Below, piece after piece: positions 25,059 through 51,661 of a stretch of DNA of 64,000 bases. Position numbers and translations under genes: made by a program. The stretch is taken from the NCBI RefSeq assembly GCF_022761125.1, contig NZ_JAKWJR010000002.1:186001-250000 (forward strand), in the 5' to 3' direction. This DNA is from Nocardioides sp. SR21 (GTDB taxonomy: Bacteria > Actinomycetota > Actinomycetes > Propionibacteriales > Nocardioidaceae). Position 1 is the stretch's first letter, and the number at the start of each line of letters is the position of its first letter. A model generated the notes under the pieces. It saw only the letters and a list, made by a program, of their open reading frames with translations. It did no database searches and was not told where the DNA came from.

Positions 25059-26702
<1,644 letters not shown>

Positions 26703-36187: not shown

Positions 36188-36880
36188 CTAGTCCCGGCTG
36201 CCGAGCGCGGCGGCGAGGGCGTTCTCGCTGCCCTCGAGGTGCGCGATCCAGGCGGCGTGCAGCTCCTCGGTCTTGCCGGCGATCGCGAGGTCCAGCAGGT
36301 GCCGGTGCTCGTCGATGCGCCCCTCGGTGGTCTCCGCGCCCCGGTCGAGGCCGGTGATCAGCAGGTGCAGGTAGCGGTCGGCCGCGTGCCAGAGCAGCTC
36401 GAGCACGCGCCGGTCGGCAGCGCCGGCGGCGTCGTCGATCAGCGCGGCGTGGAACGCGTGGTGGGCGGCGGCCAGCGCGGCCGGCTCCCGCTCGATCTCG
36501 GCGTACTCGTCGAGGGCGTCCTGGGCCAACGCGAGCCGCTCGTCGGTCATCGTGGCCATCGCACGGAGGACGAGGTCGCCCTCGATCAGCTTGCGCAGCC
36601 GGTAGATGTCGGCGAGGTCCTCGGGGCTGAGCGAGGCGACCAGTGCGGAGCGCCCGGGGCGGAGGCTGACCAGCCCCTCGCTCTCCAGGCGGCGCAGCGC
36701 CTCGCGCACCGGGATGTGGGAGACGTCGAACTGCTCGCAGAGCTCCACGATCGACACGGCCGATCCCGGCTGGATGTCGCCGTTGAGGATCGCGCGGTGC
36801 AGCTCGTCCGTGACCCGGTCGACCAGCGACTGGTGCGCGATCGGCCGCACCGGCGTTGCCGTTCCTGGGCGTCGAGCCAT
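36188..36880 (-). CDS. GntR-family regulator, FCD (FadR/VanR) type
   Basis: 230 residues. Winged helix (about 15-75) with LVDRVTDELHRAILNGDIQPG and DVSHIPVREALRRLESEGLV; the C-terminal FCD domain (95-220) holds the metal/effector residues D/H in HHAFHAAL, HAADRYLHLL and DEHRHLLDLAIAG. FCD regulators respond to organic acids and mostly repress catabolic genes. The ATG at 36880 is preceded by GGGAGA; an upstream extension lacks homology. It diverges from the flavin-reductase fusion, whose promoter holds an ATATCGTATAT element. It is the best candidate regulator of the whole island. Confidence 0.88.
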   Translation of the reverse strand: MARRPGTATPVRPIAHQSLVDRVTDELHRAILNGDIQPGSAVSIVELCEQFDVSHIPVREALRRLESEGLVSLRPGRSALVASLSPEDLADIYRLRKLIEGDLVLRAMATMTDERLALAQDALDEYAEIEREPAALAAAHHAFHAALIDDAAGAADRRVLELLWHAADRYLHLLITGLDRGAETTEGRIDEHRHLLDLAIAGKTEELHAAWIAHLEGSENALAAALGSRD

Positions 36881-37020: not shown

Positions 37021-37038
37021 ACGCCTAGGGAGGTGTTC

Positions 37039-38319
37039 ATGGTCGACCCGTCGACGTTCCGCAACGTGCTGAGCCAGTGGCCCAGCGGTGTCACTGTCGT
37101 GACGACGCTGGTCGACGGCGTGCGCCACGGCATGACGGCCAGCTCGTTCTCGAGCGTCAGCGCCGAGCCGCCGCTGGTCTCCGTGTGCCTCTCGCGCCAC
37201 CTCTACTCGCACGAGCTGATCGCGAGCAGCGGGGTCTTCGGCATCAACATGCTCGCCAAGGACCAGGCCGAGGTCGCCCGCCGCTTCGCCGGCATGGTGC
37301 CCGACGTCGAGGACCGCTTCGCGGGCGAGAGCTGGACGACCGCCGAGACCGGCGTGCCGCTGCTCGACTCCGCGCTGGGCTGGCTCGACTGCAAGGTCGT
37401 GCACGAGTACCCCGGTGGCGACCACACGATCTTCGTCGGCGAGGTCCTCGCCGGCCACGCCGCTCCGCGTACGGCGCCGCTGCTGTTCCACTCGCGCAGC
37501 TGGGGTCAGTTCGCCGACGTGCTCCCGACCGCGGCCACCGTCGCCGACGGTGGCGTCGTGGCGTCGCTGCGCGCCCGGTCGCACCCGATCAGCAAGATCT
37601 TCGGGACCGTCCGCGAGCTGGCGGCCGCCGGCGTCCGCGTCCGGCTCCTCGACCTCACGCGCGACGAGCCGCCGGTCGCCGTACCGGAGGAGCTGAAGGA
37701 CCGCGGCACCGCGCTGGTGGACACCATCGAGCAGCGCGACCGCGCCCTCGAGCTCGGTCTGTCGACCGTCGAGGTCACCGTCGACCCCGCGAACCTCGCC
37801 GACCTGGACCGCGTCCTGGCGATCGCGGACGGCGCGCCCGGCAGTGTCGTCGTGATCCTCGACGACGCGTTCGACCCCGCGCGCAACGACGTCGTGCTCG
37901 GCTCGATCGTCGCGCTGTCCTCGGCCGGTGTCGCCGAGATCGGCCTGTCCGAGAAGGGCGACACCGCGAACCCGCTGCGCGTGCGCTCGCTGCTGCAGGA
38001 CGCCGTCGGCCTGGCCCGGCCGGTGCCGCTGCGCATGCACCTGCGCAACCACGACCGGCTCGGGCTGGTCAAGGCGATCGTCGCGCTCAAGAGCGGCGTG
38101 CACCACTTCGACACCACCCTGTCCGGCCTGGACGGAACCGTCGCCACCGAGGACCTCGTCCGCCTGTTCGGCGGCGTCGAGGTGGACTCCCCGGCCGACC
38201 CCGACCTCGTCGACAACGCCGCCGCCGCGCTGCGCCTCGCGCTCGCGCCCACCGGCGTCACCCCCACTGACCTCGCGACCGAGCCGGTCGCGACCAACCC
38301 CGTAGGAGCCGCAGGATGA
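37039..38319 (+). CDS. Flavin reductase fused to a degenerate DRE-TIM (HMG-CoA-lyase-like) domain
   Basis: 426 residues. Residues 1-160 are an HpaC/ActVB-like flavin reductase that would supply reduced flavin (FRNVLSQWPSGVTVVTTLVD, MTASSFSSVSAEPPLVSVCL, VFGINMLAKDQ, DHTIFVGEVL). Residues ~180-405 resemble the C-terminal part of an HMG-CoA lyase/isopropylmalate-synthase TIM barrel: LRMHLRNHDRLGLVKAIVAL, VHHFDTTLSGL and VATEDLVRLF. The metal-binding HxH reads HLR and the N-terminal catalytic RDG motif is not seen, so this part may be structural or altered. ATG at 37039 after AGGGAGG. The next gene, an ACAD-fold flavoprotein, is its probable oxygenase partner (4-nt overlap). Confidence 0.8.
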   Translation: MVDPSTFRNVLSQWPSGVTVVTTLVDGVRHGMTASSFSSVSAEPPLVSVCLSRHLYSHELIASSGVFGINMLAKDQAEVARRFAGMVPDVEDRFAGESWTTAETGVPLLDSALGWLDCKVVHEYPGGDHTIFVGEVLAGHAAPRTAPLLFHSRSWGQFADVLPTAATVADGGVVASLRARSHPISKIFGTVRELAAAGVRVRLLDLTRDEPPVAVPEELKDRGTALVDTIEQRDRALELGLSTVEVTVDPANLADLDRVLAIADGAPGSVVVILDDAFDPARNDVVLGSIVALSSAGVAEIGLSEKGDTANPLRVRSLLQDAVGLARPVPLRMHLRNHDRLGLVKAIVALKSGVHHFDTTLSGLDGTVATEDLVRLFGGVEVDSPADPDLVDNAAAALRLALAPTGVTPTDLATEPVATNPVGAAG

Positions 38320-39602
38320 CGGGCAAGCTGACCGCCGAGTACCTCCTTCCGGACCTGACCGACGCGGAGCGCGAGCGCGCCGCCCGGGTCGAGTCCGTGC
38401 TGCCGGCGATCGCCGCCGCCGCCCAGTCCGCGGACGAGGCCGCAGCGCTGCCCGAGGGGCACATCAAGCTCCTCGCCGACGCGGGCCTGCTCGGCCTCGT
38501 CGTCCCGGAGGAGTTCGGTGGCCTGGGTGGCGGGCTCCGCGACCTCGCGGCCACGACGTACACCCTCGGCACCGTCTGCGGCTCGACCGCGCTGGCGTTC
38601 TTCTTCCACTGCTCCTCGTCCTCGCGCGGCATGCTGCCGCTGGCCGCGCTCGACGCGGGCCTCTACAACGAGGAGGAGGCGCCGGTCGTGCGCGCCTTCG
38701 CCGAGAAGGTGCTGCACCTGATGGGCACCGACCAGAAGGCGATCGGCAACTTCGCCAGCGAGGCCGTGAAGGCGTCGAACGCGAACGTGCTGATCCGCAC
38801 GACCGCGACCCGCACCGAGGGCGGCTGGCTGCTCAACGGCGAGAAGTCGTTCGGGTGCCTGTCGGGCACCGCCGACTACTACCTGGTCACCGCCCGTCGT
38901 GAGGACGTCGAGGGCCTCGACGCCCTGACGCTGTTCCTCGTGCCGCGCGAGACCGAGGGCTCGCGCCCGCGGTCGGCGTGGCTCGGCCTCGGCATGCGCG
39001 CCTCGGACAACAACGGCCTGATCATGGAGAACTGCTTCGTCCCCGACGAGCTCTCGCTGGCCGTGCCCGGTGCGTTCACCCGCGCCACCTCGATGTCGCG
39101 CGGCTCCTGGGTCGGCAACCAGATCGCCATCGCCGCGATCTACGCCGGCATCGCGCAGGGCGTGTGGGACTACGCGCTCGGCCGCACGATGGGCGCGAAG
39201 TTCGCCGACACCGGCAAGCCGATCGCGTCGAGCCCGATGCACCAGGTCCTCATCGGTGACGGCGAGCAGCACCTGGCCGAGGCGCACCTGTGGCTGCGCC
39301 GCCAGATCGAGCTCGAGGCCAGCGACCCGCCGATCCTGCCGAAGAACGAGGTCGTCAAGAGCTGGAAGCTCGCCAAGGGCGCCATCTGCGAGCACGCCCA
39401 CCAGGTCTCCCTGGCGGCGCTCAAGATGTGCGGTACGTCGGGTGCGCTGATGGGCAACGAGATCGGCCGAGCCGTCCGCGACACCGCCATGGGCCTGGTC
39501 CAGGCCTTCCCGGCCGAGCGCGGCAAGCTGGACCTGGCGAAGATGATTGTGGACGACGAGGGCTACGCGGGCCTCACGACCACCGACAGCTTCAAGAAGT
39601 AG
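38316..39602 (+). CDS. Acyl-CoA-dehydrogenase-fold flavoprotein, probable FMN-dependent monooxygenase
   Basis: 428 residues with three acyl-CoA dehydrogenase domains: N-terminal helices with LADAGLLGLVVPEEFGGLGG, a beta domain with RTEGGWLLNGEKSFGCLSGT, and C-terminal helices ending GLTTTDSFKK. The region that carries the catalytic Glu in true dehydrogenases is not recognisable, and the gene is translationally coupled to a flavin reductase, so a two-component monooxygenase of the DszC/group D type is more likely than beta-oxidation. It would hydroxylate an aromatic or heterocyclic substrate. A real acyl-CoA dehydrogenase cannot be excluded. Confidence 0.78.
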   Translation: MTGKLTAEYLLPDLTDAERERAARVESVLPAIAAAAQSADEAAALPEGHIKLLADAGLLGLVVPEEFGGLGGGLRDLAATTYTLGTVCGSTALAFFFHCSSSSRGMLPLAALDAGLYNEEEAPVVRAFAEKVLHLMGTDQKAIGNFASEAVKASNANVLIRTTATRTEGGWLLNGEKSFGCLSGTADYYLVTARREDVEGLDALTLFLVPRETEGSRPRSAWLGLGMRASDNNGLIMENCFVPDELSLAVPGAFTRATSMSRGSWVGNQIAIAAIYAGIAQGVWDYALGRTMGAKFADTGKPIASSPMHQVLIGDGEQHLAEAHLWLRRQIELEASDPPILPKNEVVKSWKLAKGAICEHAHQVSLAALKMCGTSGALMGNEIGRAVRDTAMGLVQAFPAERGKLDLAKMIVDDEGYAGLTTTDSFKK

Positions 39603-39610
39603 GAGCAGCG

Positions 39611-41095
39611 TTGAGCACGAACCGCCTGGAACTGCCCGAGCCCGGCCAGCTGGTCGCGGGCACCTGGTCGGTGCCGACCGGCGCCCTCGACCTGAAGCTC
39701 GAGGACTCCTTCACCGGTACGACGGTCGGCGTGGCCGCCGAGTCCGACGCGGACTCGGTCGAGCGGGCCGCGGCCGCCGCGTGGGCGGCGTACGAGAACG
39801 GCAGCTGGCTGGAGCTCGGTCCCGAGGGGCGCGCGACGATCCTCGAGGCCGTCGCCGACGCGCTGGAGCCCGAGCTCGAGCGGCTGTGCGCGCTGGAGTC
39901 CTTCGCGACCGGCGTGCCGGTCCGGCAGACCTCGATCGTCGGCATCATCGTGCCCGGCGCGTTCCGGCTCGCCGCCGGCATGCTCCGCGCCGGCGTGCTG
40001 TCCGACCAGCTCACCTCCGACGCGGGCTACACCGTCGAGGTGCACCGCCTCCCGCTCGGCCCGGCCCTGTGCCTGGTGCCGTGGAACGCGCCGGCCCCGA
40101 TGGCGGCCCACAAGGTCGCCAGCGCGCTGGCCGCCGGCGCCCCGGTGATCCTCAAGCCGAGCGAGTACGCGCCGTACGGCACCTCGGAGCTGGCCCGCGT
40201 GATCGGTCGCGTGCTCGCCGAGCACGACGTCGACCCGGGCGTCTTCCAGCTCGTGCAGGGCGGCTCGTCCGTCGGTGGCCGGCTGGTGCGCGACGCGCGG
40301 ATCCGCGCGGTCTCGTTCACCGGTGGTGCGATGGGCGGCAAGGCCGTCGCTGCGGCCTGCGCCGAGGACTTCACCGCGCTGCAGCTCGAGCTCGGCGGCA
40401 ACAACCCGCTCGTGATCATGCCCGACGCCGACCCGGCCGCCGCCGCACGCGCTGCTGCCGATCTGCTCACGACGCTCAACGGCCAGTGGTGCCGCGCGCT
40501 CGGGCGTCTGGTGCTGCCTGCCGCCATCGCCGACGAGGTCGTCGAGCTGACGCTGGAGCGGCTGGCCGCGCTGAACGTCGGCGACCCGCTCGACCCCGAG
40601 ACCGACCTCGGCCCGATCGTGCACTCCGGCCACCTGGCCCGGCTGCGCGAGGAGATCGGCACCCGCGAGGGCGCCGGCGGCGTCGCGCACTCCAGCACCG
40701 TGCTGCCCGACGGCCCGGGCGCGTTCCTCGCGCCGACGCTGCTCACCGGCGTCCCGTCGGACGCCGCGACCGAGGAGATGTTCGGCCCGGTCGCGACCGT
40801 GCACACCTACGAGACCGAGGACGAGGCGCTCGCGCTGGCCAACGGCACGCCGTTCGGCCTCGAGGGGTACGTCGTCGGCGCCGACACCGACCGCGCCCTG
40901 GCGCTGGCCCGCAAGGTCCGCGCCGGCGAGGTCAAGGTCAACGGCTCGACGATCATGAGCCTGCACCTGATGTCGCCGCGTCCGGCCTGGGGCTTCTCCG
41001 GCCTGGGCGAGGAGGGCACGGTCGAGACGATCCGCATCTTCACCGGCGCGCGCGTCGTCGGCGTCGAGGGCATGACGGCTCTGCACGGCCGATGA
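39611..41095 (+). CDS. NAD(P)-dependent aldehyde dehydrogenase
   Basis: 494 residues. The ALDH signature is complete: VPWNAPAPMAAHKVASALAA, KPSEYAP, SFTGGAMGGK, general base E260 in LELGGNNP and catalytic C294 in NGQWCRALGR. It oxidises an aldehyde to an acid. TTG start at 39611 preceded by AGGAG (39601-39605). It belongs to the six-gene run beginning at 37039, followed with a 4-nt overlap by the lyase-family gene. Substrate unknown; probably an aldehyde released by monooxygenase cleavage. Confidence 0.92.
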   Translation: MSTNRLELPEPGQLVAGTWSVPTGALDLKLEDSFTGTTVGVAAESDADSVERAAAAAWAAYENGSWLELGPEGRATILEAVADALEPELERLCALESFATGVPVRQTSIVGIIVPGAFRLAAGMLRAGVLSDQLTSDAGYTVEVHRLPLGPALCLVPWNAPAPMAAHKVASALAAGAPVILKPSEYAPYGTSELARVIGRVLAEHDVDPGVFQLVQGGSSVGGRLVRDARIRAVSFTGGAMGGKAVAAACAEDFTALQLELGGNNPLVIMPDADPAAAARAAADLLTTLNGQWCRALGRLVLPAAIADEVVELTLERLAALNVGDPLDPETDLGPIVHSGHLARLREEIGTREGAGGVAHSSTVLPDGPGAFLAPTLLTGVPSDAATEEMFGPVATVHTYETEDEALALANGTPFGLEGYVVGADTDRALALARKVRAGEVKVNGSTIMSLHLMSPRPAWGFSGLGEEGTVETIRIFTGARVVGVEGMTALHGR

Positions 41096-41976
41096 GCAGC
41101 CAGCGCTTCCGGGAGATCCTGGCCGGGCCCGACCTGGTCCACTTCCCGGGCGTGTACGACGCGGTCAGCGCGCGCCTCGCGGCGCGCGCCGGTGTCGTCG
41201 GCGCGCACCTGTCCGGGGCGGTCGCCTCGGCGGTGCAGCTCGGGCTGCCCGACCTCGGCTACGTGCACGCGACCGACATCGTCCGGGTCGCGCAGACCGT
41301 CGTACCGGCGCTCGACGGCCTGCCGCTGCTGGCCGACGCCGACACCGGCTACGGCAATGCGCTCCAGGCCCGCGCCACCGCGCGCGCCTATGCCGCCGCC
41401 GGCATCGGCGGGCTGCACCTCGAGGACCAGGTCGCGCCGAAGCGCTGCGGCCACCTCGCCGGCAAGCAGGTCATCGACGTGGACGAGGCCGTGGCCCGCG
41501 TACGCGCGATGGTCGAGGCCCGCCCAGGGGACGGCGACAGCGGCATCGTGGTCGTCGCCCGCACCGACGCGCTCAGCGTCGAGGGCATCGGCTCGGCCAT
41601 CGAGCGCTGCGCCGGGTTCGCCGAGGCCGGCGCCGACGCGGTCTTCGTCGAGGGCGCCGACGTCGAGGACATCGCCCGCGTCGTCGAGGCCGTCGAGAAC
41701 TGCCCGCCGATGGTGTTCAACCGGTCCGAGGCCGCCGGCAACGGCGCCGCCCCCGACTGGACCGCGCTGCAGGACCTCGGCGTCCGCGTCGTGATCCACC
41801 CCGTGTCCGCGCTGCTCGCCGCCGCGCAGGCGCAGGCCGCCGTGTACGCCGCCGTCGCGGCCCACGGGGACGCCGGGCAGACCGCCCGGATGGGCTGGGG
41901 CGAGCTCACCGAGCTGCTCGGCCTTCCCGACCTCCTCACCCTCGAGCAGCGGTACGCCGCAGGAGATCCCTCATGA
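41092..41976 (+). CDS. PEP mutase/isocitrate lyase superfamily lyase
   Basis: 294 residues. An (alpha/beta)8 barrel with metal-binding D82 and D84 (LLADADTGYG), E111-D112 in HLEDQ and the signature K117-RCGH121 (APKRCGHLAGK), as in 2-methylisocitrate lyase, oxaloacetate decarboxylase-like proteins and 2,3-dimethylmalate lyase. It would split a C-C bond of a malate-type acid to give pyruvate (or glyoxylate) and a smaller acid. A dimethylmalate-like substrate would suit breakdown of alkyl-maleates from pyrrole rings; this is inference. It is coupled by 4-nt overlaps on both sides. Confidence 0.85.
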   Translation: MSSQRFREILAGPDLVHFPGVYDAVSARLAARAGVVGAHLSGAVASAVQLGLPDLGYVHATDIVRVAQTVVPALDGLPLLADADTGYGNALQARATARAYAAAGIGGLHLEDQVAPKRCGHLAGKQVIDVDEAVARVRAMVEARPGDGDSGIVVVARTDALSVEGIGSAIERCAGFAEAGADAVFVEGADVEDIARVVEAVENCPPMVFNRSEAAGNGAAPDWTALQDLGVRVVIHPVSALLAAAQAQAAVYAAVAAHGDAGQTARMGWGELTELLGLPDLLTLEQRYAAGDPS

Positions 41977-43178
41977 CTCACGTCCTTGTTGCAGGTGCCG
42001 GCCCCGTCGGCATGACCGCGGCGCTGCTGATGGCGCGCGGTGGCGTGCAGGTCACCGTGCTCGAGGCCGGCGAGTCGCTGGCCGGTGAGTCGCGGGCGTC
42101 GACGTTCCACCCGCCGAGCCTGGAGATGCTCGACGACCTCGGCGTGCTCGAGCCCGTCATGGAGCGAGGCCTGGTGTCGACCGGGTTCCAGTACCGCGAC
42201 CGTCGTACCGGCCCGATCGCCGACCTCGACCTCGGCGTGCTGTCCGAGGACACCCGCTTCCCGTTCCGCGTCCAGCTCGAGCAGTCGAAGCTGACGCCGA
42301 TCGTGCTCGAGATCCTCCAGGGCATGGACAACGTGACGGTCCACTTCGGCCAGCGCGTCGTGCAGGCCGAGACCGACGGCACGACCGCGACCGTGACCAC
42401 CGAGGCCGGCGACACGTTCACCGCCGACTGGGTGCTCGGTGCCGACGGTGCGAACTCGCAGGTGCGCCAGACCGCCGGCTTCACGTTCGAGGGGATGACC
42501 TACCCCGAGCGGTTCCTGGTCGCCTCGACCACCGAGGACCTCGAGTCGATCCTGCCGGGCATCTCGGCGGTCAACTACGTCTTCGACCCGACCGAGTGGC
42601 TGGTGCTGCTGCGCACGCCGGAGCACTGGCGGGTGCTGTTCCCGACCGACCCGGAGACCCCGGACGAGGTCGAGAGCGACCCGGCCCGGGTCCAGGAGCG
42701 GATGCGCGGCGTGGCCGACCTCGGTCGCGACTGGGACGTCCTGCACACCACGCTCTACCGCGTGCACCAGCGCGTCGCCGACACGTTCCGCAAGGGCCGG
42801 CTGCTGCTCATGGGCGACGCCGCGCACATCAACAACCCGCTGGGCGGGATGGGCATGAACAGCGGTCTCCACGACGCGTACGTCGAGACCAAGGCCCTGC
42901 TCGCGCTGATCCAGGGCGAGGGCACGCTCGAGGAGCTGGACGAGGCGTGCGAGGCGCGCCGCCAGGTCGCGCTGTCGTACGTCAAGACGATCACCCACGA
43001 CAACTGGGAGAAGCTGCGCCAGGACGACCCCGAGGCGATCAAGGCGTACCACGACGAGCTGCGTGAGCTGGCCGCCGACCGCGAACGGATGCGCAAGCAC
43101 CTGCTCAACACCTCGATGATCAACTCGCTGCGCGGTGTCGGCGTCGTCGACATGGTCGGCGTCAAGGCGCAGGGATGA
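41973..43178 (+). CDS. Class A FAD-dependent monooxygenase
   Basis: 401 residues with the FAD site GAGPVGMTAALLMARGG, the second FAD/NADPH DG motif VLGADGANSQVRQ and the GDAAHINNPLGGMGMNSG motif (aromatic-ring hydroxylase class). These enzymes use NAD(P)H and O2 to hydroxylate or cleave aromatic and heteroaromatic rings; some open pyridine rings. The protein shows no C-terminal thioredoxin-like domain. It is coupled with the lyase-family gene and the second aldehyde dehydrogenase. Likely attacks a pyrrole or other ring intermediate; substrate not known. Confidence 0.9.
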   Translation: MTHVLVAGAGPVGMTAALLMARGGVQVTVLEAGESLAGESRASTFHPPSLEMLDDLGVLEPVMERGLVSTGFQYRDRRTGPIADLDLGVLSEDTRFPFRVQLEQSKLTPIVLEILQGMDNVTVHFGQRVVQAETDGTTATVTTEAGDTFTADWVLGADGANSQVRQTAGFTFEGMTYPERFLVASTTEDLESILPGISAVNYVFDPTEWLVLLRTPEHWRVLFPTDPETPDEVESDPARVQERMRGVADLGRDWDVLHTTLYRVHQRVADTFRKGRLLLMGDAAHINNPLGGMGMNSGLHDAYVETKALLALIQGEGTLEELDEACEARRQVALSYVKTITHDNWEKLRQDDPEAIKAYHDELRELAADRERMRKHLLNTSMINSLRGVGVVDMVGVKAQG

Positions 43179-44614
43179 CCATCCAGCGGGAGAACCCGGC
43201 GCGCACCGACGAGCTCGTCGGCAGCATCGTCGCGGCCACCCCGTCGGAGGTCGACCTCGTCGTCGCCAACGCCCGCAAGGCGCAGCCCGAGTGGGCGGCG
43301 CTCGACGTGGACTCGCGGGCGACCGCGGTCCGCACCGGCGCCGAGCGGATCGTCGCCGAGGTCGACCAGCTCGCGGAGCTGATGGCCCGCGAGACCGGCA
43401 AGGTGCTGGGGGACTGCCGCGGCGAGCTGCTGTTCTCCGCGTCCGTGCTGCGCTGGGCCGCGGACCGCGCGCCCGCGCTGCTCGCCGACCACGTGATCGA
43501 CGACGACGCCGGCCGGCTGCTGATGCGCCGCCGTCCGTACGGCGTGGTCGCGGCGGTGACGCCGTGGAACGCGCCGGTCATCCTGGCGGTCCTCAAGCTC
43601 GGCCCGGCCCTGGTCGCCGGCAACGCCGTCATCGTGAAGCCGTCGCCGTTCGCGCCGTTCGCGATCGCCCGCGTGGTCGAGCTGCTCGGCGGATGGATGC
43701 CCGACGGCACGGTCCAGGTCGTGCAGGGCGAGGCCGAGACCGCGACCGCGCTGGTCGGCCACGCGGGTGTCGACCGGGTCGCGTTCACCGGCGGCGAGAA
43801 CGCCGGCCGCGCGCTGGCCGCGATCGCCGGCCAGGCGCTGACGCCGGCGCTGATGGAGCTCGGCGGCAACGACCCGGCGATCCTCCTCGACGACGCCGAG
43901 CTCGGCCCCGACGCGATGGACCGCCTGGTGATGGCGAGCTTCGCCACCTCCGGCCAGGTGTGCATGGCGGTCAAGCGCCTGTTCGTCCCGCGCCGCCGCT
44001 ACGACGAGGTCGTCGACGCCTACCGCGCGGCGGCCGACCGCGTGCTGCGCATCGGCGACCCGCTGTTCGACGGCGTCACCCTCGGCCCGGTCGTGACCGC
44101 GGCGTCGGCGACGCGGGTGCGGGGGATGGTCGAGGATGCCGTCGCGTCCGGAGCCGAGGCGATGCTGCTCGGCGAGAGCGACGCGCACACCGACCTCGGT
44201 CGCGGGCACTTCCTGCGGCCGACGCTGGTGCTGGGCGCGTCCGACTCCGACCGGCTGGTCAACGAGGAGCAGTTCGGCCCGACCGTCCCGCTGCTGGCCT
44301 ACGACACGCTCGACGAGGCCGTCGCCCGGGCCAACGCCGGCGACCTCGGCCTCGGCGCCTCGGTGTGGTCGGCCGACGAGGACCGCGCGTTCGCCGTCGC
44401 GACGCGGCTCGAGGCGGGCTTCACCTTCGTCAACACCCACAACCGCACGGGCATGGCGCTGCGAGCGCCGTTCGGTGGGATCAAGCGCTCCGGCTGGGGC
44501 CGGGAGTACGGCGACGAGGGACTCGTCGAGCACACTCAGACGTGTGTCGTGCATGCCCCCGGCGCGTTCCGTCCGGGCGGGTCCGGGCTCGGGGCAGCTG
44601 CTTACCCCGTCTGA
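43175..44614 (+). CDS. NAD(P)-dependent aldehyde dehydrogenase (second)
   Basis: 479 residues with TPWNAPVILAVLKLGPALVA, KPSPFAP, FTGGENAG, E228 in MELGGNDP and catalytic C263 in SGQVCMAV, and the C-terminal PFGGIKRSGWGREYG. It differs clearly from the ALDH at 39611 (about one third identical by eye), so the two serve different aldehydes. The ATG overlaps the monooxygenase stop by 4 nt. It is the last gene of the run that starts at 37039. Confidence 0.93.
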   Translation: MTIQRENPARTDELVGSIVAATPSEVDLVVANARKAQPEWAALDVDSRATAVRTGAERIVAEVDQLAELMARETGKVLGDCRGELLFSASVLRWAADRAPALLADHVIDDDAGRLLMRRRPYGVVAAVTPWNAPVILAVLKLGPALVAGNAVIVKPSPFAPFAIARVVELLGGWMPDGTVQVVQGEAETATALVGHAGVDRVAFTGGENAGRALAAIAGQALTPALMELGGNDPAILLDDAELGPDAMDRLVMASFATSGQVCMAVKRLFVPRRRYDEVVDAYRAAADRVLRIGDPLFDGVTLGPVVTAASATRVRGMVEDAVASGAEAMLLGESDAHTDLGRGHFLRPTLVLGASDSDRLVNEEQFGPTVPLLAYDTLDEAVARANAGDLGLGASVWSADEDRAFAVATRLEAGFTFVNTHNRTGMALRAPFGGIKRSGWGREYGDEGLVEHTQTCVVHAPGAFRPGGSGLGAAAYPV

Positions 44615-44628
44615 CCTTCCGTTGCGAC

Positions 44629-44642
44629 GTACATCATATATA
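44629..44642. promoter_or_regulatory. Shared AT-rich promoter motif, variant B (RCCR-like operon)
   Basis: GTACATCATATATA, one mismatch from the motif at 34159. It lies in the 60-bp gap before the RCCR-like gene (start 44675, ribosome site GAGCGAGGAG). It places the eight-gene tetrapyrrole-type operon under the same candidate control as the rest of the island. Confidence 0.55.
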
Positions 44643-44674
44643 CTTCGGTCCACCCGACCCGAGCGAGGAGCACG

Positions 44675-45490
44675 ATGAGCCAGACCCTGAAGTCCGTGCG
44701 GGAGTTCTACGACGAGGCGCCGCCGACCGACATCACGGAGATCTTCGGCACCTGGATGGAGCTCGTCGACGGCCTCAAGGCGAAGGTCGCGGACCGCTTC
44801 GACCTCACGCGGGACCCCTCCAGCGACGTCCTCGAGAGCTTCGGCGGCGAGAACGGCGGCCCGACCGGCCGGATCCGTGCGTACGCCGGCCCGGAGATCG
44901 ACTGGATGGTGCACTCCTACATGGAGAACGCCAAGGTCGGCTTCGCGAACATCCACCTGACGATCTGGCTCGGCCCGCAGGTGAAGGTGCCGCACTTCGG
45001 TCTCGCGCTCGGCGCGTTCCCGCAGGCCTGGATCTTCGTCGACTCCGTGCCGCGGACCAACCTGCTCACCGACACCGACTCGTTCGACCGGTACTACGGC
45101 CCGCTCAACTCCGAGTGGGAGCAGGTCCAGCAGGAGAACGACTTCCTCTCCCCGTTCGTCAGCCGCAGCGGCTTCGTCCGCGCGAGCCTGTCGCCGATGG
45201 CGCACGCCTACACCGCGCCGACCGACGGCCGCACCACCGACGTGGTCACCAAGCTCGCGACCGACCACCTCGACCGCTGGCTGCGCTGGGTCGACGAGGC
45301 CGAGCGGGTGCCGGTCGAGGAGCAGGCCGCGCTGGCCGCCGACGACCTCGCGACCCGTCGCAACATCGCCGACCGCGACCCGGCCAACGAGATGGGCGAC
45401 CGGTTCTTCGGCAAGGACCTCACCAACACCCTGGTCCGTGCCCTCTGGGGTGGCGACCGCCAGCTCCCGCGCGCCCACGAGCAGGGCTGA
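44675..45490 (+). CDS. Red chlorophyll catabolite reductase (RCCR) homologue
   Basis: 271 residues. Recalling plant RCCR, the order and spacing of its blocks match: PEIDWMVHSYMEN (cf. SPIDFVIGSW), then PHFGLALGAF with AWIFVDSVPRTNLLTD (cf. LVLILDLPHRKDLVLN) and FDRYYG, then FLSPFVSRSGFVRASLSP (cf. NPYVSPSLFVRSAFSP), and finally ADRDPANEMGDRFFGKDLTN (cf. EDDLDLQFPRMFGEEVSS), which keeps the conserved acidic residue. RCCR is a ferredoxin-dependent bilin-reductase-fold enzyme that reduces the opened chlorophyll product. No ferredoxin gene is in the window. First gene of the eight-gene operon; ATG after GAGCGAGGAG. Confidence 0.75.
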   Translation: MSQTLKSVREFYDEAPPTDITEIFGTWMELVDGLKAKVADRFDLTRDPSSDVLESFGGENGGPTGRIRAYAGPEIDWMVHSYMENAKVGFANIHLTIWLGPQVKVPHFGLALGAFPQAWIFVDSVPRTNLLTDTDSFDRYYGPLNSEWEQVQQENDFLSPFVSRSGFVRASLSPMAHAYTAPTDGRTTDVVTKLATDHLDRWLRWVDEAERVPVEEQAALAADDLATRRNIADRDPANEMGDRFFGKDLTNTLVRALWGGDRQLPRAHEQG

Positions 45491-45491
45491 C

Positions 45492-46478
45492 ATGGCCCTG
45501 GTCCGAAGCCTGCGCGCCGCCGTGCGCATCCCGGGTGCGGAGGCGCCGTACGACACGGCGCACCTGACCGTGCGCTACCCGGCCCGGCCCCCGCAGGACT
45601 CCGTCGAGGAGATGAGCGGGATGCTGCAGGCCGACCCGGAGGGCGCGCCCTTCCCGGTCGTGGTGCTCGTGTCCGGCGTCAACGTCGCGGCCGACTCCTA
45701 CCGCTGGCTGGCCTTCGAGCTGGTCGAGGCGGGCTTCGTCGTCGTCGGCTACGACTGGGTCGGGGAGCTGTTCCCGGGCCAGTACGGCCTGACGCCGGGC
45801 GTCGACATCGTCGCCGCCGGCCCGGACCACTACGGCGAGCGGCCGACGAGCCCGGCGCTGGCGCCGGTGCTCGAGGCGGTCGCCGCGCTCAACGAGTCCG
45901 GCCAGCTGGCCGGTCTGCTCGACCTCGAGAACGTCGCGCTCTTCGGCCACTCCGCCGGCGGCACCGTGGTGCTGCAGTCGTCGCGACCGAGCTGGTTCCC
46001 GAACGTGCGGGCCGTCGTCACCTACGGCGCCCACACCATGGCCTCGCAGATGCTCGGCTACCCGCCGGGCATGCTGCTGCCGGTCCCCGTCGGCGCGCCG
46101 ACCATGCTGATCGCCGGCACGAACGACGGCGTCGTCGCCGCCAGCGCGATCCGCTACGGCGAGGACCCGTCCTCGCCCGACCACAACCCGATCGAGCGCA
46201 CCTGGCGCGAGGCGCTGCCCGAGACCACCGAGTCCTGGCTGGTGAAGCTCGCCGACGCCGGGCACCTGCTGGCCGCCTACCCGGAGGACCCGTCCACCGC
46301 GCGTGGCTTCCTCGAGACGCCCACCGACGCCGACCCGGAGCGGTTGCGCGCGGTGCTCTCGGACGTCGTCATCACCTTCCTCAAGGCTCACCTCGCCGGC
46401 GACCCGGCTGCCAAGGACCGGCTGGCGAGCCTTGCCGAGAACCACCCGACCGACATCGCCGACGTACGTCGTCGCTAG
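45492..46478 (+). CDS. Alpha/beta hydrolase, chlorophyllase-like
   Basis: 328 residues. Layout resembles chlorophyllases and related esterases: FPVVVLVSGVNVAADSYRWL (oxyanion region), LVEAGFVVVGYDWVG, nucleophile in LFGHSAGGTVVLQS (GHSxGG), acid in IAGTNDGVV and His in LADAGHLLA. Chlorophyllase removes the phytol chain from chlorophyll. The GHSAGG motif and this layout are shared with dienelactone-type and polyester hydrolases, so the specific activity rests on the neighbours (RCCR-like 1 nt upstream, Rieske oxygenase 10 nt downstream). No signal peptide, so it acts inside the cell. Confidence 0.7.
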   Translation: MALVRSLRAAVRIPGAEAPYDTAHLTVRYPARPPQDSVEEMSGMLQADPEGAPFPVVVLVSGVNVAADSYRWLAFELVEAGFVVVGYDWVGELFPGQYGLTPGVDIVAAGPDHYGERPTSPALAPVLEAVAALNESGQLAGLLDLENVALFGHSAGGTVVLQSSRPSWFPNVRAVVTYGAHTMASQMLGYPPGMLLPVPVGAPTMLIAGTNDGVVAASAIRYGEDPSSPDHNPIERTWREALPETTESWLVKLADAGHLLAAYPEDPSTARGFLETPTDADPERLRAVLSDVVITFLKAHLAGDPAAKDRLASLAENHPTDIADVRRR

Positions 46479-46488
46479 GAGGAGACCC

Positions 46489-47721
46489 ATGTTCAAGAAC
46501 TTCTGGTACGCCGTCGAGTTCAGTGACGACGTCAAGCCGGGCAAGCCGATGAAGGTCAAGGTCCTCGGTCAGCAGCTGGTGCTCTACCGCAAGACCAGCG
46601 ACAACTCCGTGGTCGCGATGTCGGACCTCTGCGTGCACCGCGGTGCCGCGCTGTCCGGCGGCACGATCAAGGACGACTGCATCGTCTGTCCGTACCACGG
46701 CTGGGAGTACAAGCCGAACGGCGAGGTGCAGAAGATCCCCGCGCACCCCGACAAGGGCATCCCGCGCAAGGCGCGCATCGACTCCTACCCGGTGGTCGAG
46801 AAGTACATGTTCGTGTGGGTCTACATGGGCGACCTCCCCGAGGAGGAGCGGCCGCCGATCCCGGACTGGTCCGACATCGACGACACCGAGACCTACCGCG
46901 CCGTCACCGGCTCCTTCCTCTGGAAGTCCAACTACGAGCGCATCCTCGAGAACGGCGTCGACGTCGCGCACACGCCGTTCGTGCACGGCGGCGTCTTCGG
47001 CAACCGCGAGAAGCCCGAGGTGCCGGAGTTCGAGATCGACAGCTCGCCGTGGCACTGCAAGGTCTCGGTCGTGCTCAACCCGCCGAACTCCAAGGGCATC
47101 TGGGGCATGCTCAACCCCAACAAGACCAAGAACCTCAAGGAGCGCCCGCCGGTCCCGGTCTCGACGACCTGGTACCTGCCGAACCTCCTGCTGCTCGACG
47201 TCGGCACGCCGATGGGCCAGCTCAAGATCTTCGACGTGAACATCCCGATCGACGAGGAGACCACGCTGGTCAAGTTCGTCGCGCTGCGCACGTTCTTCAA
47301 GGGCAAGTGGGCCGACGGCGACGCCCGCCGCCGCGTGTTCAAGGTCCTCTACGAGGACCAGGCCGTGGTCGACGAGGTTCGCCCGGAGCTGCTGCCGTTC
47401 GACCTCTCGGACGAGCTCCACGTGAAGAGCGACATCAACGCGGTGCTCTACCGCCGTCGCCGCCAGGAGCTCATCGACGCCGGCTGGAGCGTCGAGGGCA
47501 ACACGATCGTGGGCGAGGGCCCGGCGCGGGTCGAGGCGCGGGTCATCCCGTCGCCGATCCGCAAGGAGGTCCCCGAGCTCGCCAGCGCGTGGAACTTCAA
47601 GGAGGTCCGCAGCCGGCAGATCAAGTCCGGCATCGACGAGCGCGAGGCGCGCGGCGACGTACCCCGCACCGACAGCACGTCTTCTTCCAACGGCTCGACC
47701 ATCGAGGAGATCAAGGCATGA
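46489..47721 (+). CDS. Rieske non-heme iron oxygenase, candidate macrocycle-opening enzyme
   Basis: 410 residues. The Rieske centre is C48-x-H50 ... C67-x2-H70 (LCVHRGAAL, CPYHGWEY). The mononuclear iron facial triad starts D158-x2-H161-x4-H166 (NGVDVAHTPFVHGG). This is the oxygenase alpha type without beta subunit, the class that includes plant pheophorbide a oxygenase (PaO), which opens the chlorophyll ring. The plant C-terminal CxxC and membrane anchor are not seen. No reductase or ferredoxin is adjacent. The ATG at 46489 is preceded by AGGAGGAG. Vanillate-demethylase-type activity remains an alternative. Confidence 0.85.
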   Translation: MFKNFWYAVEFSDDVKPGKPMKVKVLGQQLVLYRKTSDNSVVAMSDLCVHRGAALSGGTIKDDCIVCPYHGWEYKPNGEVQKIPAHPDKGIPRKARIDSYPVVEKYMFVWVYMGDLPEEERPPIPDWSDIDDTETYRAVTGSFLWKSNYERILENGVDVAHTPFVHGGVFGNREKPEVPEFEIDSSPWHCKVSVVLNPPNSKGIWGMLNPNKTKNLKERPPVPVSTTWYLPNLLLLDVGTPMGQLKIFDVNIPIDEETTLVKFVALRTFFKGKWADGDARRRVFKVLYEDQAVVDEVRPELLPFDLSDELHVKSDINAVLYRRRRQELIDAGWSVEGNTIVGEGPARVEARVIPSPIRKEVPELASAWNFKEVRSRQIKSGIDEREARGDVPRTDSTSSSNGSTIEEIKA

Positions 47722-48482
47722 CCAGCCTGTCCGGAACCCTGTGCCACGGCACGCTCGACACGATCGTCGAGCGGGGCAACCTCACCGAGGTGACGTCCGC
47801 CGACGGCGGCCCGCTCATCGAGCTGGTGTCGGAGGCCTTCGGCCCGGTCGGTGAGGCCCGCGTCTTCTCCGGCGAGCGGGTCGCCAAGGCCGTGTACGTC
47901 GGCCTCGCGGTCCCGGCGATCGGCCTCGACAGCCACATGGTCTTCGCGTTCAGCCCGGCCGGCGTCCCGGTCCCGCACTTCACGCTGGACTCGGTGTTCG
48001 GCCAGGGCACCTACGCCTTCCACCTCGACCTGATCCCGCGGGTCGACATCGGCACGCACCTGTCGTACCTCGACTGGGCGCACACCCCGCTGGACGCGAC
48101 GTTCGACGAGGTCACCAGCCGACCCGGCCTGACCAAGACCGCGATCGGTCCGCGCCAGTTCTCGCTGATGTCGCCGTGGATGCTGGTGCAGCGCGCCGAC
48201 GAGGAGGCCTTCCGCGGTATGGACGGCGCCGTGAAGTCGTACCTCGACCACTGGTTCAGCCTGGTCGAGGGTGAGGTTCCGGACGCCGTCCTCGCGGACG
48301 TGTCGGACACCGACCTCCCGACCCGCGACGAGCGCAACCGCGCGCTGGTCTTCAGCCCCGACGTCGACAAGGTCTGGGCCCAGGTGGAGCAGCTCATCGG
48401 CGCCGAGCAGACCGAGGCCGTGCGCACCCTCCTCCTCGACAACACGCTGCCCCAGGTCCCGGGCAAGGCGGTGACCGCATGA
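47718..48482 (+). CDS. Second RCCR/bilin-reductase-like protein
   Basis: 254 residues. It repeats the RCCR-type order in diverged form: VYVGLAVPAIGLDSHMVFAF, then PVPHFTLDSVFGQGTYAFHL with LDLIPRVDIGTHLSYLD (cf. PHFGLALGAF and FVDSVPRTNLL in the first), LMSPWMLVQRADEEAFRG (cf. VSRSGFVRASLSP) and a C-terminal VDKVWAQVEQLIGAEQTEAV. The common core PxPHFxLxxxFGxxxxxxHxDLIPR supports the same ferredoxin-dependent bilin reductase fold. It is coupled to the Rieske gene by a 4-nt overlap. It could reduce a later bilin or be a scaffold. Homology to RCCR is weaker than for the 44675 gene. Confidence 0.55.
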   Translation: MTSLSGTLCHGTLDTIVERGNLTEVTSADGGPLIELVSEAFGPVGEARVFSGERVAKAVYVGLAVPAIGLDSHMVFAFSPAGVPVPHFTLDSVFGQGTYAFHLDLIPRVDIGTHLSYLDWAHTPLDATFDEVTSRPGLTKTAIGPRQFSLMSPWMLVQRADEEAFRGMDGAVKSYLDHWFSLVEGEVPDAVLADVSDTDLPTRDERNRALVFSPDVDKVWAQVEQLIGAEQTEAVRTLLLDNTLPQVPGKAVTA

Positions 48483-49432
48483 GCAACGCCGAGACCAGCG
48501 AGTGGCAGAAGCGCATCGAGGGGGAGTGGCACGGTCGTCCGGGCCTCTTCGACGCCGAGGGCAACCACGTCGGCTTCGAGCGCGTCGACCGCGCGAGCGT
48601 CGTCGAGGACGGCGTCTCCCGCTACTGGATGCACACCTCGCTCGAGGGTGCGGGTCCGCTGCGCAACCGCTTCGAGCTGGGCGCGCACTTCGACTTCGGC
48701 ATCGTCGACTCCGACCAGAACCGTGTCTACTGCGGCCCTGACTTCTACGGCACCGGCCAGCCCTACGGCCTGTTCGTCGAGGCCAACTACTACTCGCCCG
48801 GCTGGCAGGCGGACCTCCGCACCTGGAACCAGGTGCTGCCCGACGGCGAGACCCAGGTCTACTCCTCGGTGCTGCACGACGGCTGGGCCGTGTGCGCGGT
48901 GTTCAACGGCATCTACAAGCGCACGTTCGACCACAAGACCAACCCGGAGACGCAGAAGTTCGTCGACGAGTGGATCGCGCTCGAGACCGAGCGCGGCTCG
49001 CGCCCGCAGGTGCTGCCGACCAAGGAGAAGGGCGCCTGGAAGGGCGAGCTCTTCCTCAACCCGGTCGACCAGAGCGACGCCGGCAAGGTCGACGTCGTCA
49101 TCGAGCACGACCCGCTGTCGCTGCGTCGCGCCCGCCAGCAGATCACCTGGAGCGGCGACCTCGAGCGCAGCTACGGCTTCGAGCGGCTCCGCGACGGCGC
49201 CCGCACGCAGTACGAAGGCCCGGACGTCTGGGGCAACGCGATCTCCTACGGCCGCGCGCTCTTCACGACGCAGCACATCATGAACGCCGACTCGCGTGGC
49301 GTGGAGAAGATCCGCGGCCGTGAGGTGCTCATCGACGCCGACACCCGCGAGCTCGCGGTCGTCTGGCAGCTGATGAGCGGCGAGACCACCACGCACTTCG
49401 TGCACGGTCTGCTGACCTGGGAGAGCGCGTGA
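48479..49432 (+). CDS. Conserved protein of unknown function in the RCCR operon, calycin-like pattern
   Basis: 317 residues, no signal peptide or membrane segment. It is predicted to be beta-rich: WQKRIEGEWHGRPGLFDAEG at the start resembles the W-x-G opening of lipocalin/nitrobindin-like barrels, followed by many short strands with paired aromatic residues (YWMHTSLEGAGPLRNRFELG, VYCGPDFYGTGQPYGLFVEA, and HFVHGLLTWESA at the end). A barrel that binds a tetrapyrrole or lipid is a guess from context. I do not recognise a named family. Coupled by 4-nt overlaps on both sides, so it belongs with the neighbouring enzymes. Confidence 0.6.
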   Translation: MSNAETSEWQKRIEGEWHGRPGLFDAEGNHVGFERVDRASVVEDGVSRYWMHTSLEGAGPLRNRFELGAHFDFGIVDSDQNRVYCGPDFYGTGQPYGLFVEANYYSPGWQADLRTWNQVLPDGETQVYSSVLHDGWAVCAVFNGIYKRTFDHKTNPETQKFVDEWIALETERGSRPQVLPTKEKGAWKGELFLNPVDQSDAGKVDVVIEHDPLSLRRARQQITWSGDLERSYGFERLRDGARTQYEGPDVWGNAISYGRALFTTQHIMNADSRGVEKIRGREVLIDADTRELAVVWQLMSGETTTHFVHGLLTWESA

Positions 49433-50238
49433 GCGCCGGCCAAGGCCGCGTCGTCGTCATCACCGGCGGCACTCGCGGCATCGGCCTCGGCCTGGCGCGC
49501 GAGCTCCTGGCGCGCGACTGCCGGGTCGTGATCTGCGGCCGCTCGGAGGCCGCTGTCACCAAGGCGCTCGGCGAGCTGGACGCCGGCATCAAGGCGACCG
49601 GCATCCCCGCGGACGTCACGTCCCGGGAGTCGGTGCAGGCACTCTGGGACCACGCGGTGGCGACGTACGGCCACGTGGACATCTGGATCAACAACGCCGG
49701 CATCTCCGCGCCGCGCCGCCCGCTGACCGAGGTGTCGCAGGACACCGTCGCGTCCGTGGTCGCGACGAACCTGTTCGGCGCCACCAACGGCAGCGTGGTC
49801 GCGATGGCCGGACTGCAGCAGCAGGCGGCCGGCGGCTGGATCTGGAACATGGAGGGCTTCGGCTCGACCGGCCAGGTGCAGCCCGGGATGGCGGCGTACG
49901 GCGCCTCGAAGCGGGCCGTGACCTACCTGACCGAGACGCTGGTCAAGGAGGCCAAGGACACCAACGTGAAGGTCGGCTTCCTGTCGCCCGGCATCGTGGC
50001 GACCGACCTGCTGATGGACGACTACGACGGTCAGCCCGAGGCGATGGAGAAGGCGAAGAAGATCTTCAACATCCTCGGTGACCGCGTCGAGACCGTGACG
50101 CCGTACCTCGCCGACGGCGTGCTCGCCGCGACGAAGTCCGGCAGCCGCGTCGCCTGGCTGACCAAGGCCAAGGCGATGGGACGGTTCGCGACCGCGGGCT
50201 TCAAGAAGCGTGACATCTTCGCTGAGGGTGCTGCCTGA
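49429..50238 (+). CDS. Short-chain dehydrogenase of the NYC1/NOL (chlorophyll b reductase) type
   Basis: 269 residues. Rossmann motif GGTRGIGLGLAREL, NNAG, and YGASK as the catalytic Tyr/Lys. Beyond general SDR features, NYC1/NOL-specific blocks occur: GGWIWNMEGFGSTG (cf. GGHIFNMDGAGSGG in NYC1), VGFLSPGIVATDLLM (cf. SPGMVLTELLL), KIFNILGDRVETVTPYLADG (cf. QMFNIICELPETVARTLVPR). In plants this enzyme reduces the formyl group of chlorophyll b, the entry step of its breakdown. The neighbourhood with RCCR, Rieske and chlorophyllase-like genes strengthens the call. GTG start overlapping the preceding stop by 4 nt. Substrate could be another formyl-tetrapyrrole. Confidence 0.72.
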   Translation: MSAGQGRVVVITGGTRGIGLGLARELLARDCRVVICGRSEAAVTKALGELDAGIKATGIPADVTSRESVQALWDHAVATYGHVDIWINNAGISAPRRPLTEVSQDTVASVVATNLFGATNGSVVAMAGLQQQAAGGWIWNMEGFGSTGQVQPGMAAYGASKRAVTYLTETLVKEAKDTNVKVGFLSPGIVATDLLMDDYDGQPEAMEKAKKIFNILGDRVETVTPYLADGVLAATKSGSRVAWLTKAKAMGRFATAGFKKRDIFAEGAA

Positions 50239-50918
50239 TGGCGGTCGATCCCTGCACGGAGTACGGCCTGGCGCTCGCCATCGAGGACTTCGTCCCGGTG
50301 CTGCTCGCCGGCTCCGGGTCCGTGGTGCTCGCGCAGGCCGCCGGCCGGGTGCTGCCCGCCGTCCGCATCCCCGCGCTGCTCGCCGGCATGCTGGTCACCC
50401 TGGGTGGCTTCTGCAAGGCGCTCTGGAAGACCCTCGTCGCGGCCGAGCCGTGCCGTGACTACCCGTTCCTCGAGGGCATGCTGTTCCCGTGCCTGGCCTT
50501 CGGCTTCGCGGGCATCGCCTGCGCGCTGGTCGGCGTGTGGCGCGGCCAGCAGGTGCCGTGGTGGCCGTTCCTGGTCGTCCCCGGCGTCGGCGCCGTCGTG
50601 GCGCTGTCGGTGGGGGACACCTGGCCGCTGCTGGTCGTCGCCGCCATCGGTGCGGTGTTCGTCGGCATCCTCGGGATCCGGCTCTCACGCCGCTACGGCT
50701 TCACCGCCGGCATCGCCTTCTACGTGGTCTACATCGTCGGCACGCTCGTGCTGCCGCCGCTGGCCGCCCGGCCGCACCAGTCGGAGGAGGTGCAGTGGGC
50801 GGAGCAGCTGACGAACTCCGTCGTCCAGCTGTGCTTCCTGCTCGGCGCGATCGGCATCCGGAGGCGCGTGACGCAGACCGACGCCCCCACTCCCGTCGAC
50901 GCAGGAGCTCGTACGTGA
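50238..50918 (+). CDS. Polytopic membrane protein of unknown function (RCCR operon)
   Basis: 226 residues with about seven predicted membrane helices between residues 12 and 205, short loops and a short basic C-terminus. Four Cys occur in or near membranes (C6, C58, C73, C83, with PC before TM3). It shares its start codon A with the SDR stop and overlaps the next gene's start by 4 nt. Possible roles are a transporter of the tetrapyrrole or its product, or a membrane partner of the redox enzymes. No family recognised. Confidence 0.7.
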   Translation: MAVDPCTEYGLALAIEDFVPVLLAGSGSVVLAQAAGRVLPAVRIPALLAGMLVTLGGFCKALWKTLVAAEPCRDYPFLEGMLFPCLAFGFAGIACALVGVWRGQQVPWWPFLVVPGVGAVVALSVGDTWPLLVVAAIGAVFVGILGIRLSRRYGFTAGIAFYVVYIVGTLVLPPLAARPHQSEEVQWAEQLTNSVVQLCFLLGAIGIRRRVTQTDAPTPVDAGART

Positions 50919-51661
50919 CCGACCGCCTCGGCTACCGCCGCAAGTTCGGCGTGATCGCCCCGAGCACGAACACCATCGTGCAGCCCGAGTTCGACATGAT
51001 GCGGGTCCCCGGCGTCACCTCGCACTACGGCCGGATCCTGATCCGGGACGGCCGGATCGGCGACGACGAGGGCATGGAGGCGCTGCTCGAGCAGATCCGC
51101 GCGTCCATGGCCGACTGCGTCGAGGGCATCATGACCATGCAGCCCGACTACATGGTCATGGGCATGAGCGCCGAGACGTTCTGGGACGGCGTCGAGGGCA
51201 ACCGGCAGTTCGTCGCACAGATCAAGGAGCTGTCCGGCGGTCTCGACGTCGCGACCGGCGCCGAGGCCTGCGAGCGGGCGCTGAAGCTCTTCGGTGCCAA
51301 GAAGATCGGCGTGGTCACGCCGTACACGCCCATCGGCGACGCGAACGTCCGCAAGTTCTTCACTGAGCTCGGCTTCGAGGTCGGCAAGATCAAGGGGCTG
51401 GCCTGCGAGAGCGCGGTCGCGATCGCGCACGTGTCGGAGCAGACCCTGCGCGAGGCGATCATCGAGGTCAACGAGCCCGACGTCGACGCGATCGTGCAGT
51501 GCGGCACCAACCTCTGCATGACCGAGCTCGCCGACGAGGCCGAGCGCTGGCTGGGCAAGCCGGTGATCGCGATCAACGCCGCCACCTGGTGGATGGCGCT
51601 GCGCGACAACGGCATCGAGGAGAAGCTGTACGGGTACGGCTCGCTCCTGCGCGACCACTGA
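50915..51661 (+). CDS. Asp/Glu racemase superfamily protein (maleate isomerase/arylmalonate decarboxylase-like)
   Basis: 248 residues. It resembles maleate cis-trans isomerase (FGVIAPSTNTIVQPEFDMMR at the start, VVTPYTPIGDANVRKFFTEL, ALRDNGIEEKLYG). The second catalytic Cys is present (C196 in IVQCGTNLC), but the position of the first Cys is occupied by Met-Ser (M84-S85 in VMGMSAETFW). That single-Cys state is seen in arylmalonate decarboxylase, so the reaction may be decarboxylation or a modified isomerisation of a maleate-type acid. GTG start, overlapping the preceding stop. It closes the eight-gene operon and fits a maleimide/maleate fate of pyrrole rings. Confidence 0.78.
   Translation: MTDRLGYRRKFGVIAPSTNTIVQPEFDMMRVPGVTSHYGRILIRDGRIGDDEGMEALLEQIRASMADCVEGIMTMQPDYMVMGMSAETFWDGVEGNRQFVAQIKELSGGLDVATGAEACERALKLFGAKKIGVVTPYTPIGDANVRKFFTELGFEVGKIKGLACESAVAIAHVSEQTLREAIIEVNEPDVDAIVQCGTNLCMTELADEAERWLGKPVIAINAATWWMALRDNGIEEKLYGYGSLLRDH

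Follow-up and report, generated by a model that had tools for sequence, protein, structure and literature searches.

Chlorophyll is made and destroyed at global scale, and to our knowledge the microbial completion of its breakdown is not known at the gene level. The plant route is well described and ends in open-chain tetrapyrroles (bilins), the phyllobilins (PMC8219035); some chlorophyll products with one or two pyrrole rings have also been reported from leaves (PMC7318184). The locus considered here belongs to Nocardioides sp. SR21 (genome size 4.8 Mb) and lies in a stretch of 64,000 nucleotides, the window (contig 12, positions 186001-250000), in which genes are named by their start coordinate. 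Among the products of a tight same-strand run of genes at 37033-51661 are an RCCR-family protein, another protein of predicted bilin-reductase fold and a Rieske oxygenase. It is rather probable that this run, together with the nitrilase-family hydrolase upstream of it, breaks down bilins as food.

Three described systems can be set beside the locus. The plant PaO/phyllobilin pathway shares with it an RCCR-family reductase with its catalytic aspartate, but has one RCCR step where three paralogues are found here, and the Nocardioides genes add amidases, lyases and CoA-dependent degradation enzymes. With respect to the ferredoxin-dependent bilin reductases (FDBRs: PcyA, PebA, PebB, HY2), the neighbouring genes are catabolic rather than chromophore-making. 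The pre-PcyA clusters of heterotrophic bacteria also place bilin-reductase relatives in non-photosynthetic bacteria (PMC10151467); RCCR-like outgroup sequences named there are from Ca. Schekmanbacteria, and a word search of the text found no ‘actinobacter’. The V4R, bilin-binding globin and heme oxygenase genes of those clusters were not among the genes scanned here, a subset of those of the window and of the adjoining stretch L005. A literature search, with most subscription journals outside it, found no described bacterial operon of such composition, in agreement with the initial annotation.

That annotation, made from the sequence alone, had pointed to eight overlapping genes. All are present, but the run is longer, with 14 genes and 13 junctions, of which nine overlap by 1 or 4 bases and the largest gap is 60 bases. 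The observation was confirmed in part, and its core holds. The closest named relatives of the 44675 protein are from Nocardioides (93-94% identity). Directly upstream of the run are the CN-hydrolase 34198 (+) and a GntR/FCD regulator (36188..36850, −; PF00392, PF07729).

The protein encoded by 44675..45490 belongs to the RCC_reductase family (PF06405; 46.8 bits, cut-off 24.9) and matches plant RCCR by profile (E 2e-19), while scoring below the cut-off of the FDBR family (PF05996); the tree places it in clade A. The reductase of clade U, encoded by 47718..48482, has no Pfam match at E 1, PF06405 and PF05996 included, and represents a reductase group outside the recognition of Pfam. Its bilin-reductase fold is predicted from an AlphaFold model (pLDDT 94), whose best structural matches are plant RCCR, PcyA, HY2, PebA and PebB. 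The expectation of two RCCR/FDBR-type reductases in one operon-like run is thereby upheld, by profile for the first and by predicted fold for the second. In addition, a third RCCR paralogue (68163-68990; PF06405 50.1 bits, above cut-off) lies just outside the window, about 17 kb downstream of the run, beside CoA-dependent degradation genes.

Residue patterns separate the paralogues. In a table that omits the long-branch rows L044 and L045, the 51 rows of groups A, B and U without exception have Asp at the equivalent of Asp291 (Arabidopsis numbering), and this catalytic column is Asp in 58 of 59 rows overall, the one deviating row being from a plant. The plant Glu154 site is occupied by Ala in group A (26/26), Val in group B (11/11) and Asp in group U (14/14). 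Group U thus carries both a central and a second Asp in 14/14 rows; in the column of PcyA His88 it has Met, with His one position earlier. The underlying tree covers 28 of the 34 PF06405 hit loci of L006-L011 and L021-L048 (L021, L032, L033, L042, L043 and L046 are left out), 12 of the 32 named loci described below and six plant proteins out of 120 listed; the cyanobacterial loci L104-L110 are outside it, and support for group A is 81/69. The placement of group U and PcyA relative to plant RCCR was discarded, the branches being too long to be trusted. As a separate observation, a Nostoc RCCR (L079:9983-10768) reaches 94 bits against PF06405, compared with 46.8 for 44675, and among eight RCCRs of the cyanobacterial class (L079, L104-L110) Glu is kept at the plant Glu154 site in six and replaced by Ala, as in group A, in two. 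PADLOC gave no anti-phage defence match for the three proteins tried.

The gene combination is conserved. Thirty-two named loci were retrieved with 44675 alone, whose presence is therefore by construction, and neighbours were counted within 10 kb at a minimum of 35% identity over at least 40% of length; low counts are lower bounds, the loci ending at 10 kb or at contig ends. Four partners, the CN-hydrolase, the Rieske oxygenase, 47718 and 48479, are each found near 44675 in 30 of the 32 loci. They are followed by the short-chain dehydrogenase (SDR; 29), the alpha/beta hydrolase (27), the racemase-like protein (25), aldehyde dehydrogenase 2 (23), the FAD-dependent monooxygenase (21), aldehyde dehydrogenase 1 (20), the acyl-CoA-dehydrogenase-like protein (15), the lyase (14), the flavin reductase (11) and the membrane protein (9). 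Eight other window genes used for comparison occur in 0, 0, 0, 0, 1, 0, 2 and 0 of the 32 loci, although this set includes the isochorismatase-type gene 28026, a member of the wider locus in closer relatives that lies beyond the stretches compared. The loci come from Nocardioides, Micromonosporaceae, Streptosporangiaceae, Thermomonosporaceae, Nocardia, Acidimicrobiia and one Nostoc; at this threshold the four core partners are missing from the Nostoc locus and from a single Nonomuraea locus. PF06405 is found in 4 of 39 relatives, in 15 of 394 genomes of the class and in 8 of 145 genomes of the class of the Nostoc genome; of 296 genomes of the phylum, 3 match the 47718 profile (at most nine candidates scored per genome). 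Each tally is drawn from a sample of genomes and counts the one used as centre. Neither 44675 (E 1e-5) nor 46489 (E 1e-60) matched a plasmid in PLSDB.

One of the core partners, 48479..49432, encodes a double beta-barrel protein of DUF3598/BFA1-like fold, predicted to be a tetrapyrrole carrier. BFA1 is a plant plastid protein. The Nocardioides protein differs from the known members in having no Pfam match at E 1, DUF3598 included. Its profile found no match among the longest-open-reading-frame proteins of the cyanobacterial loci, a comparison that is uninformative for the GC-rich L111 and L112, where such gene calling was wrong and missed 48479 relatives detected there in another search. Since the profile matched none, the cyanobacterial DUF3598 link is one of fold and Pfam family and not of direct similarity. 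In three of eight loci of the cyanobacterial class (L113, L114 and L116), the genes after RCCR encode a CN-hydrolase, an aldehyde dehydrogenase and a protein of 148 residues, whose Nostoc copy exceeds the DUF3598_N cut-off and whose other two copies are its BLAST homologues; the other five loci do not show this set. Here, for a second time, RCCR is paired with an enzyme of amidase type, with an aldehyde dehydrogenase and with a barrel of DUF3598 type.

Bilins are favoured as substrates because of the family history of the reductases, and breakdown is favoured as the function because of the amidases, lyases and CoA enzymes. The substrate is plausibly a chlorophyll-derived bilin, given the kinship with RCCR and the abundance of such compounds. 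The initial annotation had proposed the consumption of chlorophyll; the catabolic setting agrees with it, and the substrate may originate from either chlorophyll or heme. Heme-derived bilins are possible, since the same contig encodes a heme oxygenase at a distance of about 195 kb. The degradation of biliverdin, bilirubin or urobilin, alone or beside chlorophyll-derived bilins, is a sub-case of bilin breakdown, and its chances, which overlap with those of the latter, are on the low side. FDBR relatives use biliverdin, and the central Asp of group U is of PcyA type; yet the heme oxygenase stands outside the cluster, and both 44675 and 68163 exceed the RCCR cut-off, the former falling short of the FDBR one.

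Family and fold do not prove activity, and a subunit of a plastid motor complex has the same fold without being a reductase. The reductase fold could have been re-used for a non-tetrapyrrole compound, within an ordinary operon for the catabolism of aromatic, steroid-like or other heterocyclic molecules; the remaining enzymes come from families common in aromatic catabolism, and groups A and B no longer have the central acid. This explanation is unlikely in view of three paralogues of the bilin-reductase superfamily, the almost invariant catalytic Asp and the linkage to a DUF3598-type barrel in two phyla.

If the plant chlorophyll pathway had a bacterial copy here, as initially annotated, this would comprise a chlorophyll b reductase and a chlorophyllase, a Rieske oxygenase opening pheophorbide and two reductases acting on the red chlorophyll catabolite. 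RCCR homology speaks for such a copy, as do the oxygenase, hydrolase and SDR genes of the run, but the individual proteins make it improbable. The Rieske oxygenase (46489..47721; PF00355 89.7 bits, PF19112) is of VanA/NdmA/SxtT type, with Rieske and VanA_C domains, CxH/CxxH motifs and the mononuclear-iron histidines (the metal-binding residues C48, H50, C67, H70, H161, H166 and D290 are each conserved in at least 93% of 31 rows), and its nearest solved structures are SxtDIOX and SxtT; it differs from that type in that 30 of the 32 loci link it to the reductases. It lacks all three PaO features tested: PF08417, the C-terminal domain of PaO, is not matched at E 1 (two weak matches elsewhere in the genome are both below cut-off), and the C-terminal CxxC and the membrane segment that occur in 3/3 Nostoc PaO homologues are absent. 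In the Rieske tree 46489 falls outside these three homologues, although the deep splits are weak (support for the Rieske family/PaO split is just 55/80) and the operon’s own Rieske rows are not united in one supported group. The PaO assignment was rejected on domain, motif and hydropathy, with which the weakly supported tree agrees. The alpha/beta hydrolase (45492..46478; PF12146 28.8 bits, cut-off 27) reaches 19.5 bits with the chlorophyllase model PF07224, below its cut-off of 26, and the sole solved structure at E ≤0.01 is a putative depolymerase (E 0.004). The SDR (49429..50238; PF00106 148 bits) looks generic, with many generic SDRs among its best listed models and structures; this comparison, made without NYC1/NOL sequences, lends the NYC1/NOL label no support. 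The Staygreen family (Mg-dechelatase, SGR) has no match in the genome at E 1, and the replacement of plant Glu154 by Ala in group A also sets the locus apart. The absence of SGR had been noticed initially for the window, as had that of a ferredoxin or oxygenase reductase, neither of which was recognised among the genes scanned. The interpretation therefore survives in part: the genes likely form an operon for bilin degradation, but the comparisons do not establish a bacterial counterpart of the plant chlorophyll pathway.

It is highly improbable that the run serves biosynthesis from a bilin (of a pigment or signal, or in antibiotic tailoring) instead of bilin consumption, for although oxygenases and reductases occur in biosynthetic clusters too, the uptake-type transporters, CoA-transferase, amidases and lyases are typical of breakdown, and no globin, V4R or heme oxygenase gene of the pre-PcyA clusters was seen among those scanned.

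Returning to bilin catabolism, a more complete version can be put forward tentatively, at somewhat less than even chances. It would amount to full mineralisation: three reductases of the RCCR type, whose fixed active sites differ, would reduce a chlorophyll-derived bilin stepwise, and oxygenases would release its single rings, which amidases, lyases and CoA-dependent enzymes would convert to central metabolites and ammonia. For the main reading of bilin catabolism, the data show gene content, the reductase family of 44675, the fold predicted for 47718, residue patterns and conservation, whereas substrate, order of steps and every reaction are proposals. In the predicted mechanism the bilin, most plausibly a phyllobilin from plant or algal debris, would be taken up by the ABC (ATP-binding cassette) or MFS (major facilitator superfamily) transporter, and the insoluble pigment would be held by the double-barrel protein 48479. 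Each of the paralogues 44675, 47718 and 68163-68990 might reduce a different double bond, after which the Rieske and flavin monooxygenases could split the reduced chain, leaving pieces of one and two rings. Trimming of side chains and formyl groups would fall to the alpha/beta hydrolase, the SDR and the aldehyde dehydrogenases, and opening of lactam or imide rings, with release of ammonia, to the nitrilase- and isochorismatase-family amidases. Substituted maleate-like acids could then reach central metabolites through the racemase-superfamily enzyme, the lyase and the CoA-transferase and hydratase genes. Oxidation of beta-substituted pyrrole rings is an established source of substituted maleimides, and enzymes of families such as those at the locus would serve to hydrolyse these compounds, isomerise them, activate them with CoA and cleave them.

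The racemase-like protein (50915..51661; PF17645 67 bits) belongs to the Asp/Glu-racemase superfamily and resembles maleate isomerases and arylmalonate decarboxylases (2xed, E 7e-10; 3dtv, E 2e-9). Maleate isomerase has two catalytic cysteines. Here only Cys196 is present, the first cysteine site reading GMSAETFW, and assignment as a maleate isomerase was not retained; because of the single cysteine, a decarboxylase or one-base isomerase is as likely.

The other genes of the run, all on the forward strand, begin with a flavin reductase domain (37033..38319; PF01613), whose C-terminal extension, about 270 residues long, gives only a weak HMGL-like match. Since this reductase adjoins it, the acyl-CoA-dehydrogenase-fold protein (38316..39602; PF02770/PF02771) is predicted to be a two-component flavin monooxygenase. 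They are followed by aldehyde dehydrogenase 1 (39611..41095; PF00171), a lyase of the isocitrate-lyase/phosphoenolpyruvate-mutase superfamily (41092..41976; PF13714; TIGR02317 220 bits, below the cut-off of 354), the FAD-dependent monooxygenase (41973..43178; PF01494 198 bits) and aldehyde dehydrogenase 2 (43175..44614; PF00171). A hydrophobic, likely membrane protein (50238..50918), identified by hydropathy, has no Pfam match above cut-off.

Upstream, the CN-hydrolase (34198..35808, +; nitrilase superfamily, PF00795 156 bits) is a predicted amidase with Glu38 in 27/27, Lys110 in 31/31 and Cys143 in 32/32 of the rows reaching those columns; its second half is without an assigned role. It is followed by a SnoaL-like protein (35810..36181, +; PF12680 27.0 bits, equal to the cut-off of 27; 61-64% identity in L092 and L094). 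A family III CoA-transferase (26830..28026, +; PF02515) has a counterpart at the same position in L012, L015 and L018; 26830 itself was absent from the query set, and these were matched solely via a paralogue at 71626 (28%). The isochorismatase-family hydrolase, another predicted amidase (28026..28658, +; PF00857 123 bits), adjoins the operon in the same three loci and is 47-48% identical to copies in L090 and L092. A cupin-like protein (28655..29230, +; PF12973 28.1 bits, cut-off 27) and the MFS transporter (32709..34058, −; PF07690) keep their positions in the three loci. Further upstream, directly before the CoA-transferase, 23310-26702 encodes the large and small subunits of acetolactate synthase and a ketol-acid reductoisomerase.

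Downstream of the run are a substrate-binding protein of an ABC transporter (59086..60456, +; PF13458; kept in three related genomes), an ABC ATPase known from its gene call (60449..61186, +; kept in related genomes), which we take to be LivF-like from its sequence, and a fused branched-chain-type permease and ATPase (61186..63996, +; PF02653, PF00005). Between the two clusters, the gene 52994-54145, presumably for an HNH endonuclease of a type often repeated in actinobacteria, has a homologue immediately 3′ of the operon in L050.

The third paralogue and its CoA-dependent degradation cluster occupy 68163-80407 (L005:164-12408), in an order nearly constant in three related genomes (G019, G002 and G017). 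There, a CoA-transferase, an isochorismatase-type hydrolase, a cupin, an MFS transporter and the CN-hydrolase precede the whole run and the ABC transporter; then come the third reductase, an epimerase-like protein, an ABM protein, a second hydrolase, MaoC, a luciferase-like monooxygenase and a CoA-transferase, and finally PrpD, a RidA fusion, two MaoC-like proteins, a thiolase, an OB protein, an acyl-CoA dehydrogenase and a CitE-type lyase. Differences in order are small, and G017 has an additional reading frame before MaoC. The ABM protein was considered as an IsdG-type heme-degrading enzyme and set aside, having no relevant solved relative.

Many genes of the locus also occur, in several pieces, in three assemblies of 1.4-1.7 Mb (G042, G070 and G121; L090-L096), where genes of the 47718 type are present in several copies and L096 has two genes of the 48479 type. 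To the family of these organisms the pathway may be of great importance. The locus supplies candidate genes in named strains of Nocardioides, Micromonospora and Streptosporangium, which makes the question directly testable, and its three paralogues with distinct active sites offer a way into the question of how a bilin reductase selects the double bond it acts on. If proven, the catabolic function would constitute a categorically new pathway and, if full mineralisation is true, a missing end of chlorophyll turnover.

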